This document shows positions 1 to 10,210 of a stretch of DNA of 25,818 nucleotides, piece by piece (the first letter of the stretch is position 1; the number at the start of each line of letters is the position of its first letter). Where the stretch lies: the NCBI GenBank assembly GCA_003511125.1, contig DOJV01000018.1, positions 1-25,818 on the forward strand, given 5' to 3'. The position numbers were made by a program, and so were the translations under genes. The DNA is from Candidatus Uhrbacteria bacterium (GTDB lineage: Bacteria > Patescibacteriota > Patescibacteriia > UBA9934 > GWF2-40-263). Under the pieces are notes generated by a model. The model was not told where the DNA came from and did not search any database. It saw only the letters and a program-made list of their open reading frames with translations.

Positions 1-718
1 AAAAATATAAACCGAACGCCACCATAATAATCCCAGACCATTGTCCTGGTGTCAAATAAATTAGAACCGTTTCACCGACTCGCAAAAAATCAAAAGCCAA
101 ACGAAATAAACCGTAAACCAATAAAAAAGAAACCAAAAAAGTTCCGATCGGAGCTTTAATTTTCTTGAACACTAAAAATACCAAGAATAAAATCAGACCA
201 AACAACGAATGATACAAACCAAGATCATGACGAACAACTCCGTCCGGATATTGCACGCCAAGAAAAAAATTCGTCGGCAAGCCCGGGTGATCATGGATCA
301 AAAAGCAACCGATGCGGCCGATAAAATAACCGAGCGGCAAACCAAAAATCAAAGTGTCGGAATATCGCCAGATGCCGAGTTTTTTTTGTCGCAAATAAAT
401 CAAGCCGAGCAAAACCGCGCCAAAAATTCCGCCCATCATACTCATACCGCCTTGCCAGATATAAAAAACCTCGAGCGGGTGCTCGATAAAATATCCGGGC
501 GAGTAGAAAAGAACAAAAAACAAACGACCAAAAACCATCGATCCGAGCAACAAGAGACCAAGAATTTCCCAAACAATTTCGGATTTCAAACCGCGCGCTC
601 GGCAAAGCCAAGCACTAGCCGCCCCGCCAGCAACAAAACCTAAGGAAACCAAGAGACCCCAGGTTTGAATGGTTATTGGACCAAGAGGAATAACAGTGGA
701 GGTTATGTATGGGAGCAT
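1..718 (-). CDS. lgt: Prolipoprotein diacylglyceryl transferase (Lgt)-like membrane protein, 3' end cut off by window edge
   Basis: Lgt moves diacylglycerol from phosphatidylglycerol to the lipobox cysteine of prelipoproteins in the cytoplasmic membrane. Translation from the ATG at 718 runs open for 239 codons to the window edge; the family is usually 260-290 residues, so only the tail is missing. Several hydrophobic segments are visible. The landmarks are recognisable: GGMSMMGG near residues 90-97, GRIGCF at 134-139, an RH..LYHS segment replacing the usual RHPSQLYE, and FRLAFDFLR near the end. Compared with E. coli Lgt from memory, the two arginines (R143 and R239 equivalents) are kept, but the Tyr26 position is Trp20, His103 is Met95 and Asn146 is Cys138. 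It starts 5 bases after the stop of the RhuM-family gene, so it is probably cotranscribed. Family assignment is fairly sure; classical activity is not. Confidence 0.85.
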   Translation of the reverse strand, partial: MLPYITSTVIPLGPITIQTWGLLVSLGFVAGGAASAWLCRARGLKSEIVWEILGLLLLGSMVFGRLFFVLFYSPGYFIEHPLEVFYIWQGGMSMMGGIFGAVLLGLIYLRQKKLGIWRYSDTLIFGLPLGYFIGRIGCFLIHDHPGLPTNFFLGVQYPDGVVRHDLGLYHSLFGLILFLVFLVFKKIKAPIGTFLVSFLLVYGLFRLAFDFLRVGETVLIYLTPGQWSGIIMVAFGLYF

Positions 719-723
719 AAAAA

Positions 724-1665
724 TTATTTCAACAATTTTTGATTAAACCTCTCCAATTCTTGTCTAACTCTTTGTTCCATATCATGTCGTGAAACACCGC
801 CGGAGTTATCCAAAATTTCTTTATCGTTCAAAATCAAAAAACCGTCGAGTTTTTGAATCCAGTCTTTCATGTACATAACCCGCTGTTCCACGCTCTGAAG
901 TTCGGCAAATGATAAAAACTGCTCAACTAATAAATTGAGTCGCTTCAATTCCAATTCTTCCAAATAATTTTTGGCGATTTCCGCTTGCTCGCGAGTAATG
1001 ACTTCACCCTTCCAATTGGTCAATCCAAGATTTTCTTTATTGCTATCCACACGACTAGAAACTATTTCCGCGGCCGTGAGGCCGGTAATGGCAAAATGAA
1101 ATTTATTTTGCACCACGGCGAAAAATTTCTGGGCATAATCGGTTTTAGGATTGTAATCGGCGCTGGTGGCAAAAACATCGCGAACTTTTTGATAAAAATT
1201 GGCTTCCGATGTCCTGATTTTTCTGATTCGTTCTTCCAACTCTTCAAAATATGGTTTTGGTACATGACCACTCTCCAATCTCTCGTCGTCTAGAACAAAA
1301 CCCTTAATAATGTATTCTTTCAGTTTTTGCGTGGCCCAGATGCGAAATTGGGTGCCGCGGAGAGAATTAATTCGATAACCAACCGAAATAATTGCGTCCA
1401 AATTATAATGTTTAACTTGATAATTTTTTCCGTCTCTGGCAGTTACCGAGGATTCCTCGGCAACTGAATTTTCGCTAAGTTCAGCTTCTAAAAAAACATT
1501 TTTTAAGTGCAAACCAATATTATCCGTACTGCAATCAAAAAGCTCGGCCATTTGTTTTTGGCTAAGCCAGACAGTTTCATCTTTCAGTTTAACCTCGAGC
1601 TTGGTCTGTCCGTCGTTGGAGTTGTAAATGATGATTTGATTGTTTTTTTCGTCCATAATTTCCAT
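724..1665 (-). CDS. RhuM-family (COG3943) protein
   Basis: This 313-residue protein matches the RhuM/COG3943 family (virulence RhuM, Salmonella SPI-3), whose biochemical role is unknown. Near the N-terminus it has the typical VWLSQKQMAELFDCS segment, a helix-turn-helix-like region, followed by KHYNLDAIISVGYRINS, RGTQFRIWATQ and LKEYIIKGFVLDDERL. The C-terminal half is charged and helical. Length is about normal for the family, so it appears intact. It lies between the displaced gatA tail, whose in-frame stop directly abuts this ATG, and lgt. RhuM genes are typical accessory genes found in islands and beside restriction-modification loci; the context here is consistent with an acquired gene. 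Whether it acts in defence or regulation cannot be read from the sequence. Confidence 0.85.
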   Translation of the reverse strand: MEIMDEKNNQIIIYNSNDGQTKLEVKLKDETVWLSQKQMAELFDCSTDNIGLHLKNVFLEAELSENSVAEESSVTARDGKNYQVKHYNLDAIISVGYRINSLRGTQFRIWATQKLKEYIIKGFVLDDERLESGHVPKPYFEELEERIRKIRTSEANFYQKVRDVFATSADYNPKTDYAQKFFAVVQNKFHFAITGLTAAEIVSSRVDSNKENLGLTNWKGEVITREQAEIAKNYLEELELKRLNLLVEQFLSFAELQSVEQRVMYMKDWIQKLDGFLILNDKEILDNSGGVSRHDMEQRVRQELERFNQKLLK

Positions 1666-1757
1666 TTAAAAATCCGGATGCCTCAAATGCCACTCTGTCA
1701 CGCCCTGATAAAACTTCCCGGCTCGGAACAAGCTTTCTTTGTCGAACAGCCTAACTA
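1666..1757 (-). pseudogene. Displaced remnant of a gatA 3' end
   Basis: Read on the minus strand this stretch encodes about 28 residues ending HLRHPDF-stop. They align without gaps to the end of the intact GatA (shared core ESLFRAGKFYQ, 17 of 28 identical by my count). At DNA level 1673-1757 aligns ungapped to 3992-4076 with about two thirds identity, including the 14-mer TGATAAAACTTCCC. There is no start codon, and the homology ends just before the stop of the repeat-protein gene. It is therefore a fragment of a gatA gene, not an independent gene. Its TEWH...HP ending looks at least as canonical as that of the intact gene. Confidence 0.85.
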
Positions 1758-1762
1758 AAAGA

Positions 1763-3979
1763 CTAAACAATATTTAAATTCGGATATTTTTTTATTATCT
1801 TTTGTTTTTCAGCCGTGGTAAGACCGTTAAGGTAGAGGTCTCTGCCGATTGTTTCCGGGAGGGTTAGACCTTCAGCAGTGGTAAGACCGTTAAGGTAGAG
1901 GTCTCTGCCGATTGTTTTCGGGAGGATTAGACCTTCAGCCGTGGTAAGACAATTGAGGTTGAGGTCTCCGCCGATTGTTTCCGGGAGGGTTAGACCTTCA
2001 GCAGTGGTAAGACGATTGAGGTTGAGATTTCCACCGATTGTTTTCGGGAGGGTTAGACCTTCAGCCGTGGTAAGACCGCTGAGGTAAAGGTCTCCGTCGA
2101 TTGTTTCAGGGAGGGTTAGACCTTCAGCTGTGGTAAGACCATTGAGGTAGAGGTCTCTGCCGATTGTTTCAGGGAGTGTTAGACCTTCAGCTGTGGCAAG
2201 ACCGCTGAGATCGAGGCTTCCGCCGATTGTTTCAGGGAGGGTTAGACCTTCAGCTGTGGTAAGACCGCTGAGATCGAGGTCTCCGCCGATTGTTTCAGGG
2301 AGGGTTACTTCAGCTGTGGTAAGACATCTGAGATCGAGGTATCCGCCGATTGTTTCAGGGAGGGTTAGACCTTCAGCTGTGGTAAGACATCTGAGATCGA
2401 GGCTTCCGCCGATTGTTTCAGGGAGGGCTAGACCTTCAGCTGTGGTAAGACCTATGAGATCGAGGTATCCGCCGATTGTTTCAGGGAGGGTTAGACCTTC
2501 AGCTGTGGTAAGACCGCTAAGGTTGAGATTTCCGTAATGATATCGTATTTCACCTCTCAAAGCTTCTTCTTTTGTAGTGCTAATTTGATCTCTGGAACAT
2601 CTGATAACTGTGGAAAGATCGTCTTTTGGATCTCGTCCGGCTAAGACTTCTTGGATTCTCGGGTCTTTTTCATAACCAAAACCTTCGATCTTGCTGTCGA
2701 ATTCGTAAAGGAAACGCAGGTCTTCTATTAAAAGCTCATTGGCTGACTTTTGTTTTTTGTTTTCCCATAAAAACGTCAAACGCTCCATGTTGGCAAGTCG
2801 TTTTTTGTACTTCTCTCCTTCAACCCCGAATTCAACAAGTTTTTCGTCTAAGACTTTGTGAATATATGGGTCAAGGTTTTGGTTGGGGGCAATGCCGCGA
2901 GGTGATTCGGCAATCTTGTTTTTTCCCTCCATGCGAATAGCCAAACGAGGAATGACTGGCTGACCATCTTCATTGAAAGAATAATAAACATAAAAGTCAC
3001 CGCCCTGCAGTTGGGTTCTGGCAGTGTCCGGATCGGCGGTACACCATTCCAAGGGGTAGCCCCCCAGACTTTTAACCAGTTCGTCGGGTTTTGATCCTTG
3101 CGGGAATTTTCTCCACTGACCGCGAGTTTCTTTTAGGCCTTCGGTGGAATACTCCGGTATCTCCAAAAGAAATTGAGCGTATAGATCGGAAAACTTTTCT
3201 GCTGATAACAGTCTTTGAAATTCCTGATCGCTTAATCTTTTGCTTACATTGGCCGCGGGCTGTCTTTGGTCTTTGGGTTTTGTTTTTTCTTCAACATAAG
3301 CGGCCATAACTCCAATGGTTTTGGCTAGGGCTCGAGGGTTTAAAAGCGGAAAAGAAGAAGTTGTGGTTTTGGTTCTTCTTTGGAAACGGGCTCTGACTTT
3401 ATTTTCATCCTCATCCTCATCTTTAGCTTCAACTTTTTCGTATTTGCCCATTTTAAGCATTGAGGTGAAAGACCAATACTTGGCCCAAGTTGGATATAGA
3501 GCGTCCGGAGAAGTTAGATAATCAAGCCAGGCATCCAGGCTTCTTTTTTGATTACTGATAATGACCGCCAGTTCTTGTTCCTTCATTTCATCGGGAAAAA
3601 GATAGTCAGTGTGTTCCTGATTATTTTCATCTGCCCAGACTTGTTTTTGAACTCCGCTTTTTGCCAAATCTCCGCCATAACCTTGTCTAATCATAATTTC
3701 GGCTTTGTTGTTCCAATAACTCTTAGGAATGTCCCCAAGAGTTATGGTAACATTCTGTTTGCGATAAAAATCCTTGATTCGCTCAAAAACCCGTGGGTCT
3801 TCGCGATGACCCATGTGAGTTTTTTCCAAGACCTTCAACCAATCGGCCAGTTTGTCGGCTGGTTTTTGTGAAGCTTCTTGATCATTTCGTCTCCTTCTTA
3901 CAACCTCATGTTCGACCGGTTTCGAGGTATGCAAAGACGGAACTTTTTGATGCAGAAATTGTTCGCCAGAATTTTTCAT
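1763..3979 (-). CDS. 738-residue tandem-repeat protein with a long conserved-looking N-terminal region; function unknown
   Basis: Function not recognised. Residues 1 to about 490 form a charged region with no signal peptide or membrane segment. It contains DWLKVLEKTHMGHRED near the start and, around residues 310-370, a block with LEWCTADPDTA, GDFYVYYS, PRLAIRM and RGIAPNQNLDPYI. The spacing of that block loosely recalls the PcfJ-like fold of plasmid and phage proteins (inference). I recall proteins of this layout in Parcubacteria genomes. The C-terminal third is eleven tandem units of about 21 residues (consensus LTTAEGLTLPETIGG.L.L) plus a capping unit ending PNLNIV, probably a beta-solenoid resembling leucine-rich repeats. 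The gene starts 5 bases after the gatA stop and is followed directly by the displaced gatA tail, which suggests it arrived by insertion at the gatA 3' end. A binding or adhesion-like role is possible but unproven. Confidence 0.8.
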   Translation of the reverse strand: MKNSGEQFLHQKVPSLHTSKPVEHEVVRRRRNDQEASQKPADKLADWLKVLEKTHMGHREDPRVFERIKDFYRKQNVTITLGDIPKSYWNNKAEIMIRQGYGGDLAKSGVQKQVWADENNQEHTDYLFPDEMKEQELAVIISNQKRSLDAWLDYLTSPDALYPTWAKYWSFTSMLKMGKYEKVEAKDEDEDENKVRARFQRRTKTTTSSFPLLNPRALAKTIGVMAAYVEEKTKPKDQRQPAANVSKRLSDQEFQRLLSAEKFSDLYAQFLLEIPEYSTEGLKETRGQWRKFPQGSKPDELVKSLGGYPLEWCTADPDTARTQLQGGDFYVYYSFNEDGQPVIPRLAIRMEGKNKIAESPRGIAPNQNLDPYIHKVLDEKLVEFGVEGEKYKKRLANMERLTFLWENKKQKSANELLIEDLRFLYEFDSKIEGFGYEKDPRIQEVLAGRDPKDDLSTVIRCSRDQISTTKEEALRGEIRYHYGNLNLSGLTTAEGLTLPETIGGYLDLIGLTTAEGLALPETIGGSLDLRCLTTAEGLTLPETIGGYLDLRCLTTAEVTLPETIGGDLDLSGLTTAEGLTLPETIGGSLDLSGLATAEGLTLPETIGRDLYLNGLTTAEGLTLPETIDGDLYLSGLTTAEGLTLPKTIGGNLNLNRLTTAEGLTLPETIGGDLNLNCLTTAEGLILPKTIGRDLYLNGLTTAEGLTLPETIGRDLYLNGLTTAEKQKIIKKYPNLNIV
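1808..2515 (-). repeat. 63-bp coding tandem repeat array (11 full units plus a capping part-unit)
   Basis: The 3' part of the 738-residue gene is a direct tandem array with a 63-bp period and very similar units; landmarks are TTAGACCTTCAGC and GCCGATTGTTTC on the plus strand. The fourth unit in coding order lacks three bases, so it is 60 bp and the frame is kept. Codons for LTTAEGLTLPETIG hardly change, whereas the codons after GG vary between units. High DNA identity between units points to recent expansion and likely copy-number variation. Confidence 0.95.
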
Positions 3980-3984
3980 AGTTT

Positions 3985-5439
3985 TTATAACTTCGGATGT
4001 TTAAAATGGTGATCGGTGATCGTTTGATAAAACTTCCCTGCCCGAAACAAACTTTCTTCATCAAACGGTTTGGCTAGCATCTGCAAACCGATCGGCAAGT
4101 CTTGATCAAAACCGCACGGAATCGACATGGCTGGGATGCCAGCCAGGTTGGCAGTGACGGTGTAAATGTCCGAGAGATACATGGTTAGTGGATCGTTAAA
4201 CTTGGCGCCAATATCCCAAGCGACCGAAGGCGAAGTTGGAGTGACAATGATATCAACTTTCTTAAAAGCCTCTTCAAAATCCCGACGAATGAGTTCGCGG
4301 ACGCGTAGGGCTTTTTTGTAATAAGCGTCGGAGTAACCAGTAGAAAGGGTGAAACTACCGAGCATGATGCGGCGCTTGGCTTCTGGGCCCAAGCCTTCAC
4401 CGCGAGCTTTAAGATAGGTGTCCAAGAGGTTCTTGCCATCAACGGCATGGCCGTAACGAATGCCGTCCATGCGGGCCAGGTTAGAGCTGACTTCGCAAGG
4501 CATAATGATGTAATAAGCAGCAATGCCATACTCGGCGTGCGGCAAAGAAATTTCTTCGACCTCAGCGCCATTAGTTTTCAAAAGTTCGACGGCTTCGAGA
4601 ACGGCTTTTTTGACGTTCTCGTCCATGCCTTCGATAAAATATTCTTTGGGAATACCGATTTTGAGACCCTTAACATCGTTCGGAATATTTTCAAAAGAAA
4701 AATAATGAGGTTTATCTACCGTAGTCGCGTCTTTATCATCAGAACCGGCGATAACCGAAAACAGCTCGGCAACCTCTTCGACTGTGCGCGCGCAAGGGCT
4801 GATTTGATCCAAACTCGAAGCCATGGCGATTACTCCGTAACGACTAACCCGACCGTAAGTCGGTTTAAGGCCGGTGACGCCGCAAAGCGCCGCTGGCTGG
4901 CGCACCGAGCCGCCGGTATCAGAACCGAGAGCTGCTGGCACAAAGCCAGCCGCTATCGCCGCAACCGAACCGCCGCTCGAGCCGCCCGGAACCTTGCTGG
5001 TGTTCCAAGGATTCTTGGTCGTGAAAAAAGCCGAGTTTTCGGTCGAGGAACCGTGGGCAAATTCGTCCATGTTAGTCTCGCCGATCAAAATAGCCCCGGC
5101 CGCGCGGAGGCGGCGAATGACCGAAGCGTCGTAAGCCGCTTCGTAATTTTCGAGCATTTTGGAACCGGCCGTGGCTTTGCGCCCTTGAACAAGAATATTG
5201 TTCTTGATAGCAATCGGGATTCCGGCCAACACAGGCAACTCTTCGCCAGCCGCTCGAGCCGCGTCCACTCGTCGAGCTTCGGCCAAGGCCTCGTCATCAG
5301 CCACATGCAAAAAAGCCCCAATCTCGTGATCGTGTTTTTTAATACGATTCAAAGCGTTCGAAACCAACTCTTCGCAAGTTATTTTCCCTTCGGCCAAAAG
5401 TTTTTTAATTTCGCCGATTGTTAAAAATTCAGTGTTCAT
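3985..5439 (-). CDS. gatA: Aspartyl/glutamyl-tRNA amidotransferase subunit A
   Basis: GatA hydrolyses glutamine and supplies ammonia to GatB, which converts misacylated Glu-tRNA(Gln) or Asp-tRNA(Asn) to the correct amide. The 484-residue protein is full length. The amidase-signature triad is intact: Lys79 in PIAIKNN, the cis-Ser Ser154 in PGGSSGGS and the nucleophile Ser178 in GSDTGGSVRQP, the same numbering I recall for Staphylococcus aureus GatA. It follows gatC by 49 bases in the ligA-gatC-gatA string; gatB is not in the window. The stop is 5 bases before the ATG of the repeat-protein gene. A second, diverged copy of its last 85 or so bases lies at 1673-1757, so the present 3' end may have been replaced or rebuilt. 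Confidence 0.97.
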   Translation of the reverse strand: MNTEFLTIGEIKKLLAEGKITCEELVSNALNRIKKHDHEIGAFLHVADDEALAEARRVDAARAAGEELPVLAGIPIAIKNNILVQGRKATAGSKMLENYEAAYDASVIRRLRAAGAILIGETNMDEFAHGSSTENSAFFTTKNPWNTSKVPGGSSGGSVAAIAAGFVPAALGSDTGGSVRQPAALCGVTGLKPTYGRVSRYGVIAMASSLDQISPCARTVEEVAELFSVIAGSDDKDATTVDKPHYFSFENIPNDVKGLKIGIPKEYFIEGMDENVKKAVLEAVELLKTNGAEVEEISLPHAEYGIAAYYIIMPCEVSSNLARMDGIRYGHAVDGKNLLDTYLKARGEGLGPEAKRRIMLGSFTLSTGYSDAYYKKALRVRELIRRDFEEAFKKVDIIVTPTSPSVAWDIGAKFNDPLTMYLSDIYTVTANLAGIPAMSIPCGFDQDLPIGLQMLAKPFDEESLFRAGKFYQTITDHHFKHPKL

Positions 5440-9106: not shown

Positions 9107-10210
9107 TTAATCTAATTCGCGCATAGCCAAACCAATAGCCACGGAAAGTTTGGGACCAATTTCATCTAAAACCGGCCGAAGTTCTTCGGGGGTCATAACC
9201 CGAGCCCAAGGATCGCCAATATAAACATTGGTGTTCATGGCCATGGTTAATTCTTTTACCAACCCCGGCAAATGAGCCGAACCGCCGGTTAAAATTATTT
9301 TTTCAACTTTTTTACCATCGGTCAATTCCATTTTGGCATAAACCTCGGAAGCATATTTGATTTCGTTGATCATTGGTTGCAAAACCGAGGCCAGGACAAC
9401 TTGCAGTCCCTCGCCGGTTTGCGGGTCGCTTTCGGCCATGGTACCTAAATCCTGTTTTAAACGTTCAGCCTCGGCTTCGGGGACGTTTAATTGTTCCATG
9501 ATCTTTTTGGTTACCGTACCACCGCCGACATTAATGCTTCTGGTTAAAAACGGAATACCTTTTTCGACAATTGTAAAATTGGTGCGAGTATAACCAATAT
9601 CTACAATCATAACCGTGCTCTTATCTTTTCCGACCAATGAACGGATAAGCGCAAAGGCCTCGGTATCCAAGGCAACCAAATCGATTTTAGCCAACTTGAA
9701 AATTTCGATATACTTTTGCACCAAAGACTTGGCCGCGCCGGTAACCAAAACCCGAACGTAATTTTTAGCATCGGTATTTAAAACCGTGGCGGTTTTTTTT
9801 TCTTCTTTGATTTTTAGAGGATCAATAAAAGTCGAGTAGGTGATCATTTCCTCGAGCGGCATGGGCGCAAGTTTTTTTACTTGTTCGTTAACCGCCTCTT
9901 TAATTATTTTCTCGTCTTTACCGCGAGGCACAGCGACAATAGCCGAAAAAACACTCGAGAGTGGTAAAGCCCCCACGGCTCGCACGGAAGTCATGCCGGA
10001 TTTTTTACAAATACTAGCAACAACCTCGGCCGTTGCTTTAACGTCCTCGAGCGGATGCAAACCATTACCATCAACTCCGCGTTCAGAATAACCATAAGTA
10101 ATCAGCCGACCGCGACCCTTTTCGTTCATGAGCTCGACAATTTTAACCCCGCCGGCGCCGATGTCGATGCCTAAATAATTTTTTGTTGTTTTTTTTCCGA
10201 AGCCAAACAT
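9107..10210 (-). CDS. pilM: Type IV pilus assembly protein PilM (actin-like ATPase)
   Basis: PilM is the cytoplasmic actin/FtsA-like component of the type IV pilus inner-membrane platform that binds the PilN tail. The 367-residue protein has the expected nucleotide-binding motifs: YLGIDIGAGGVKIVEL near the N-terminus (phosphate 1), MIVDIGYTRTNFTIV in the middle (phosphate 2) and ILTGGSAHLPGL near the C-terminus (adenosine). NEQVKKLAPMPLEEM and the INVGGGTVTKKI segment are typical of PilM. Partners PilN/PilO do not follow here; instead a receiver and a pilin-like gene do. A TGCTATAAT box ends 9 bases before the ATG, suggesting a leaderless transcript that starts the three-gene string. Confidence 0.93.
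   Translation of the reverse strand: MFGFGKKTTKNYLGIDIGAGGVKIVELMNEKGRGRLITYGYSERGVDGNGLHPLEDVKATAEVVASICKKSGMTSVRAVGALPLSSVFSAIVAVPRGKDEKIIKEAVNEQVKKLAPMPLEEMITYSTFIDPLKIKEEKKTATVLNTDAKNYVRVLVTGAAKSLVQKYIEIFKLAKIDLVALDTEAFALIRSLVGKDKSTVMIVDIGYTRTNFTIVEKGIPFLTRSINVGGGTVTKKIMEQLNVPEAEAERLKQDLGTMAESDPQTGEGLQVVLASVLQPMINEIKYASEVYAKMELTDGKKVEKIILTGGSAHLPGLVKELTMAMNTNVYIGDPWARVMTPEELRPVLDEIGPKLSVAIGLAMRELD

Follow-up and report, generated by a model that had tools for sequence, protein, structure and literature searches.

The window analysed here is a stretch of 25,818 nucleotides, a single contig (C39) of a draft Candidatus Uhrbacteria genome, G000, which has a total size of 1.11 Mb in 67 contigs. 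On the minus strand, the genes run in the order ligA, gatC, gatA, rep, a remnant of a gatA tail, rhuM and lgt, and the features relevant to this study are summarised in Table 1 together with those of a second genome of the same genus, G020, which is also a draft assembly, of about 110 contigs. The named relatives in the protein searches are Uhrbacteria and other Patescibacteria. The intact GatA scores 602.6 bits against the NCBIfam model TIGR00132 (cut-off 481.1), it also matches Pfam PF01425, and its gene is the single full gatA matched in G000. RhuM matches Pfam PF13310 (E 2.5e-98, 328.8 bits) and the PADLOC model PDC-S05 (E 4.1e-128, 425.3 bits), and the latter profile match makes it a candidate defence gene. 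The rep gene starts 5 bases past the gatA stop and ends 5 bases before the start of the alignment between the two gatA tails, confirming an earlier sequence-only reading which had placed this 738-residue gene exactly between the two copies. The stop codon of the remnant, TAA at 1666-1668, abuts the ATG of rhuM without an intervening base, and 5 bases lie between the end of rhuM and lgt. No integrase or recombinase was recognised by Pfam in rep, RhuM, GatA, Lgt, LigA or GatC.

Table 1. Features of the gatA-lgt region in the window and displaced gene ends detected in the genome G020.
Feature	Position or locus	Strand	Basis or similarity of the pair	Cargo
gatA, intact, 484 aa, Asp/Glu-tRNA amidotransferase subunit A	3985..5439	-	TIGR00132, PF01425	
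Intact gatA tail, counterpart of the remnant	3985..4076	-	ungapped alignment, 58/85 bases	
rep, 738 aa	1763..3979	-	flush between both gatA tails	
Displaced gatA tail (stub), 31 codons and stop	1666..1761	-	alignment, GatA search, shuffles	
rhuM, 313 aa, defence candidate PDC-S05	724..1665	-	PF13310, PADLOC PDC-S05	
lgt, cut by contig end, ancestral gatA neighbour	2..718	-	PF01790	
G020 uvrA, end displaced	L208		124 bases, 93.5%	small open frame without family
G020 trmD, start displaced	L210		87 bases, 92%	Fic (SoFic profile)
G020 valS, start displaced	L207		122 bases, 95%	Fic (PDC-S04 profile)
G020 gene of 165 residues, start displaced	L211		103 bases, 85%	PheRS-like gene
G020 DUF5680 gene, start displaced	L086		111 bases, 88%	rhuM (PDC-S05)

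The remnant, referred to below as the stub, is clearly related to the end of gatA. Positions 1673-1757 align without gaps to positions 3992-4076, with 58 of 85 bases identical, in agreement with the two-thirds identity claimed earlier, and the pair was also detected as a direct-repeat family (D3) with 71% identity over 83 nt. The stub frame, 1666-1761 on the minus strand, translates to LLVRLFDKESLFRAGKFYQGVTEWHLRHPDF followed by the stop. Up to that stop it shares 58/87 bases and 17/29 residues with the intact tail, such that the shared residues and the retained stop reported before are both borne out. When the codon order of the stub was shuffled 20,000 times, taking the best of 21 offsets each time, the maximum was 39 matches out of 85, and the concern that the alignment might prove no better than shuffled sequence can be set aside. 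Moreover, a GatA search of G000 recovers the stub with an E-value of 6e-7. The earlier statement that the stub lacks a start codon holds for its head, although in-frame TTG and GTG codons do occur inside it.

The intact tail, the stub and the corresponding tail of G020 are approximately equidistant (intact-stub 58, intact-G020 62 and stub-G020 64 of 87 bases), as would be expected of two lineages rather than of a recent local copy. The intact tail differs alone at 14 sites, the stub at 12 and G020 at 8, and all three differ at 3 sites; the longest exact core common to the intact tail and the stub is 14 bases. When polarised with G020, changes specific to the stub fall at codon positions one to three in the numbers 2, 5 and 5, fitting decay since its displacement, while those specific to the intact tail number 3, 1 and 10. 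Differences between the two tails are biased to the third position (18/29 against 11/58). At first sight this bias suggests that both tails diverged as working genes, an argument that does not hold since the bias stems from the intact tail. The distance between the two is what separates the tails of different species in the genus, in line with the earlier proposal that they come from different lineages or that the event is old. There is moderate support for an origin of the two tails in distinct lineages within one small group and, given this distance, they were more probably brought together by recombination than by local duplication.

When the stub was added to a gatA tree, it placed best beside the window gatA, beside its nearest relative, P0001, whose GatA is 83% identical to that of the window, or on their common stem (0 to -0.5 lnL). 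Placement at P0011 was 2.5 log units worse and was not rejected, while placement beside G020 was rejected. With the 30 residues available the placement is weak, 14 of 31 places not being rejected at p 0.05, including P0011 and the outgroups.

The DNA behind gatA was read in 29 of the 38 relatives, namely those for which loci were returned. In 27 of these lgt follows gatA, directly in 24 and past one extra gene in 3, with a 4-base overlap between the two genes in 14 of the 27 and a gap of 2-181 bases in 10; in G020 lgt lies 116 bases past gatA. The two remaining relatives carry no lgt in the stretch read, which in one of them ends with the contig. This distribution identifies gatA-lgt as the old order, with a junction that takes up single genes now and then. 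As judged by eye, the extra genes (L037, L042 and L052) encode two related membrane proteins and one acetyltransferase-like protein, and no matched displaced gatA tail was found at any of the three. Relatives with gatA followed by lgt and no repeat gene, which the sequence-only reading had proposed to seek, are thus available, among them G020, in which rep has no match. No second gatA piece was found next to gatA at E 0.001 in the 38 relatives, a search that more diverged stubs could escape, and the complete second gatA that might have explained the stub by deletion was likewise not seen among them. Across the 39 genomes, the stub was matched only in G000. G020 does carry a second gatA, which is 52% identical and lies on another contig.

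The rep protein consists of an N-terminal domain and eleven 21-residue repeats, one of which has 20 residues, and the corresponding 63-nt DNA repeats lie within 1745-2619. It matched no family in Pfam, NCBIfam or PADLOC. For the N-terminal 493 residues a fold was predicted with a mean pLDDT of 88.8, for which Foldseek found no match in the PDB at E 0.001 or better; residues 284-393 compare with acetyltransferases at a middling Z of 5.6, possibly reflecting a common arrangement. Of 7,995 candidates scored, 1,202 proved to be homologues. One in Candidatus Uhrbacteria GW2011_GWE2_45_35 is 98% identical, and another, from Falkowbacteria, is 63% identical over 99% of the length. The former has 650 residues against 738, with fewer repeats and a different end, and the genome carrying the latter belongs to a separate lineage. 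Within the family, rep is matched in 10 of 42 genomes, G000 included, and these family matches are 27-47% identical outside the repeats and up to 73% within them. Such a patchy occurrence, with closer kin far away, points to a horizontal spread of rep. A scan of viral contigs confirmed no relative of rep. At six other rep loci no displaced end of a neighbouring gene flanks rep, so rep as such would not be the cause of the displacement. At L089 (G003:C3) the end of the rep relative itself is repeated downstream, at 9234-9362, with 65% identity over 43 residues. In the same locus (L089:8916-9362) rhuM and the rep relative are neighbours.

Displaced gene ends were also sought more widely. The last 40 or first 50 residues of each gene were used as a query for pieces on the same strand and within 6 kb that were not whole genes, and a filter of coverage under 0.4 and at most 4 places left 20 rows. 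Twelve of these were dropped by eye, namely rows at L198 and L210 (repeats of diversity-generating retroelements, DGR), L203 (a dispersed repeat), three at L223 (presumably a heavy-metal domain, to judge by its motif), two at L201 (paralogues), one at L193 (near a contig end) and one each at L124, L265 and L085 (the wrong side). The eight rows kept comprise five among 351 genes of G020, gatA as the single case among 477 genes of G000, one (L220) among 548 genes of the other relatives and one (L131) among 739 genes of diverse bacteria. Compared with the other relatives and diverse bacteria combined, G020 gives p 0.006, G000 gives p 1.0 and the two genus genomes together p 0.06. The enrichment thus comes from five cases in a single genome. 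The G000 sample included the window, and that of G020 included four loci fetched for rhuM, one of which yielded a case; without the rhuM-chosen loci the comparison for G020 becomes 4/318 against 2/1,287 (p 0.016). A reversed-tail control, covering tails and not heads, produced no row.

In three of the five G020 cases the displaced end adjoins a Fic or RhuM gene matching a defence or defence-candidate model. The PDC-S and SoFic models describe single-gene systems. G020 has 7 Fic and 4 RhuM matches, one fusion being counted twice, and 3 of the 10 genes adjoin a displaced end. The G020 displaced ends and the gatA stub measure 87-124 bases, though longer ones were detectable. For the uvrA, trmD and valS pairs, three of the five, differences by codon position number 2, 5 and 10 (p 0.03), which hints that these pairs diverged partly as genes. 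No recombinase was recognised in the G020 cargo beside the displaced ends. Seven further loci around Fic genes yielded a DGR (L371), a paralogue array (L376) and a sub-threshold match of 24 bits (L374). Taken together, the survey carries a hint of a wider habit of displaced ends in the genus.

The homology of the stub, a site that is empty or otherwise filled in relatives, the stubs of G020 and the presence of competence gene families together favour one-sided recombination as the origin of this arrangement. With evenly poised confidence, we consider the stub to be the cell's own old gatA end, displaced by DNA of a related cell that brought a new tail together with rep. An incoming strand would have comprised the 3' part of gatA from a relative, followed immediately by rep, and RecA-type pairing could have anchored that strand in gatA. 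The joint at its other end would then have formed a few bases beyond rep, inside the recipient's gatA tail and with no real homology. As a result, gatA would have remained whole with a borrowed end, rep would have joined the operon, and the old tail would have been left as a stub ahead of rhuM and lgt, where it may have been decaying since. The sequence-only reading had a DNA segment with a gatA tail entering at this site; this part probably stands, with recombination as the means of entry. Both G000 and G020 encode Pfam families of the ComEC type (PF03772) and DprA type (PF02481), and a DNA uptake machinery is predicted for both. DNA uptake by Patescibacteria has also been argued for in PMC12455944. 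In the window gatA is continuous and whole, tails of what appear to be two lineages are present, and no parent sequence shows the crossover; among the sequences compared, neither a donor nor a parent from before the event was found.

The reverse direction of transfer, which we judge unlikely, would start from a recipient with the order gatA-rep-lgt, into which a foreign gatA tail entered together with rhuM and lgt, with homology in lgt and a non-homologous joint behind rep. It accords with the continuity of the stub with rhuM and lgt, with 0 or 5 bases between them, and it finds some support in a comparison of gatA and lgt trees, in which rows of five lineages and two outgroups were linked across two protein searches indirectly, by equal lengths of the longest contig. 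The window lgt lies near G020, c36420 and c11220 in its tree (90/90), while the window gatA lies outside the matching group of the gatA tree (83/86). The AU test rejects a group made up solely of the window lgt, c66858, c45594 and their relatives (p 0.015), and the lgt tree is rejected by gatA when the comparison is confined to nine shared lineages (p 9e-8). Against this, lgt accepts the gatA tree on the same nine lineages (p 0.18), gatA together with P0001 may be placed in the matching group (p 0.52), and lgt grouped with the whole of the other group gives p 0.09. Mosaicism had been considered on the strength of this tree conflict and was dropped, the conflict on the nine shared rows being one-way only, and the two trees give no clear independent sign of it for these lineages. 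Moreover, the tree positions that suit the stub best are those near the gatA of the window.

A small circle carrying a gatA end and rep, and entering by one crossover within the gatA tail, would leave a stub whose left part stems from the donor and whose right part is native. It predicts a gene with a new end, then cargo, then a displaced end, as is seen, and Jackson et al. (2009, PMC2935791) proposed such a circle for Rhs tips. The exact 14-base core and the length of 87-124 bases of the six displaced ends kept for G000 and G020 are compatible with it. There is, however, no clear mosaic to the left and right of the core (intact-stub 24/36 and 20/37; stub-G020 24/36 and 26/37), and some 90 bases at 67% identity are poorly suited to a crossover unless most of the divergence came later. 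We consider such a circle distinctly unlikely.

Very unlikely, in our estimate, is a tandem duplication that covered the 3' end of gatA, or covered the whole gene and was followed by deletion, with subsequent decay and with rep between the copies or arriving later. A Glu-Ser pair that the stub shares only with the intact tail and P0001, among 17 GatA rows, together with its best placement beside them, speaks for a local copy, as does the lack of third-position bias in the stub's changes. Nevertheless, each of the two tails resembles that of G020 no less than it resembles the other (58/87 against 62/87 and 64/87), so old a copy might still be traceable in G020, in which lgt follows gatA after 116 bases, and no second copy at the site was matched in the 38 relatives.

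An assembly error, in which two genomes were joined at the repeat-rich end of rep, is highly improbable. The 63-base repeats of rep are hard to assemble, both genomes are drafts, with 67 contigs in G000 and about 110 in G020, and displaced ends of 87-124 bases are near the length of a short read. On the other hand, the window lgt is the sole lgt matched in G000, and a full-length lgt, identical over the 239 residues of the window's lgt, occurs in a cluster of three contigs of which the longest has 66,348 bases; this occurrence outside the window's contig makes it less likely that the contig combines two species, as far as such matches can tell. Tails that are 67% identical are presumably too dissimilar for an assembler to merge, and the same arrangement is seen again at five genes of G020, where the cargo differs. 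For the gene that adjoins lgt in G020, no match was obtained in G000.

Prophage e14 integrates site-specifically in icd and restores the end of that gene. A similar event at the 3' end of gatA would give the same outline, the gene having acquired a new 3' end and the old one lying apart, but it is barely credible here given that no integrase was recognised between or beside the tails, that the copies are far from identical (58/87, with a core of 14 bases) and that G020 displays displaced starts as well, with no recombinase recognised in their cargo. The analogy with islands at tRNA genes, drawn in the sequence-only reading, is not supported, on the same grounds, including the absence of att-like copies.

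Among known processes, homology-facilitated illegitimate recombination comes close to the one-sided recombination favoured above. As described in PMC3240628 for three competent species, Streptococcus pneumoniae, Acinetobacter baylyi and Pseudomonas stutzeri, one end of the incoming DNA is homologous and the other is not, the joint usually having 3-10 bp of microhomology, and the published events, which come from laboratory transformation, usually delete about as much as they insert. A probably foreign gene lodged beside a conserved anchor and the presence of competence gene families are common to both, and at gatA too one end would be joined by homology and the other without it. For Vibrio T6SS effector-immunity modules, the mechanism proposed in PMC5361080 has a new module entering via an upstream anchor and the old piece being shunted downstream as an orphan. 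The displacement of an old piece downstream of a newcomer is similar, although the displaced immunity genes, as described there, seem to be kept for use, while at gatA the anchor is an essential gene and the displaced end an equivalent one in decay.

In the displacement of Rhs C-terminal tips (PMC2935791) the old end, with a fragment of the core, comes to lie downstream of the intact gene, and the stub agrees with this in retaining part of the conserved gene and in its position downstream of the intact gatA. Rhs proteins differ in combining a constant core with variable conserved tips, whereas the two gatA tails code for the same conserved end, what is new being the cargo. Prophage e14, an element of 15 kb, separates 163 bases of icd by site-specific integration (PMC6379469); the replaced 3' end and displaced old end of a gene are common to both cases, but at gatA there is one gene, no recognised integrase and no near-identical att repeats. 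What is seen at gatA is an unusually clear scar in an essential gene, probably left by an event of a known kind.

Patescibacteria have small genomes and, to our knowledge, the route by which accessory and defence genes enter their tight operons is poorly known. Displaced gene ends would provide a readable footprint of DNA uptake and one-sided recombination, for which any genome could be scanned. In the literature searched, no paper was found linking illegitimate recombination with Patescibacteria or the Candidate Phyla Radiation, and none on anti-phage defence with Fic in Patescibacteria. A more far-reaching idea, which we hold to be quite unlikely, is that in this genus single genes, many of them one-gene Fic or RhuM phage-defence modules, might spread as minimal cassettes that use a piece of a neighbouring essential gene, about 90-125 bases from its start or its end, as a landing signal, independently of an integrase or transposase, each landing leaving a displaced end.

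Diversity-generating retroelements likewise duplicate the 3' end of a gene at a site further down. Gene ends with such a second copy, about 310-330 bases downstream, were observed at L198:16065-17301 (G000:C17), L210:15640-16810 (G020:C10) and L371:4216-5531 (G000:C27). The mismatches lie at template adenines in 19/19 and 12/13 cases at the first two loci, and by eye at the third, and by this mismatch pattern the three are classed as DGR repeats. A DGR origin was rejected for the gatA pair, in which the template base is A at only 3 of 27 mismatches.

Several other arrangements were encountered. At L376:1-12000 (G000:C61) and L084 (G000:C40), about five paralogues of about 580 residues alternate with rhuM, Fic and another gene; those paralogues tested gave no Pfam match. 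Dispersed repeats of about 110 bases, of the type CATTGCGAGGAGC, surround a small gene at L203:1881-3998 (G020:C2), which we take to resemble GIY-YIG. At L096:75-1950 (G014:C12) related pieces, maybe of one broken gene, flank a rhuM that appears truncated. Finally, valS of G020 (L207:4844-7534) is 53% identical to that of G000 and 71% identical over 626 residues to that of G018, and to judge from these identities may itself have been exchanged.
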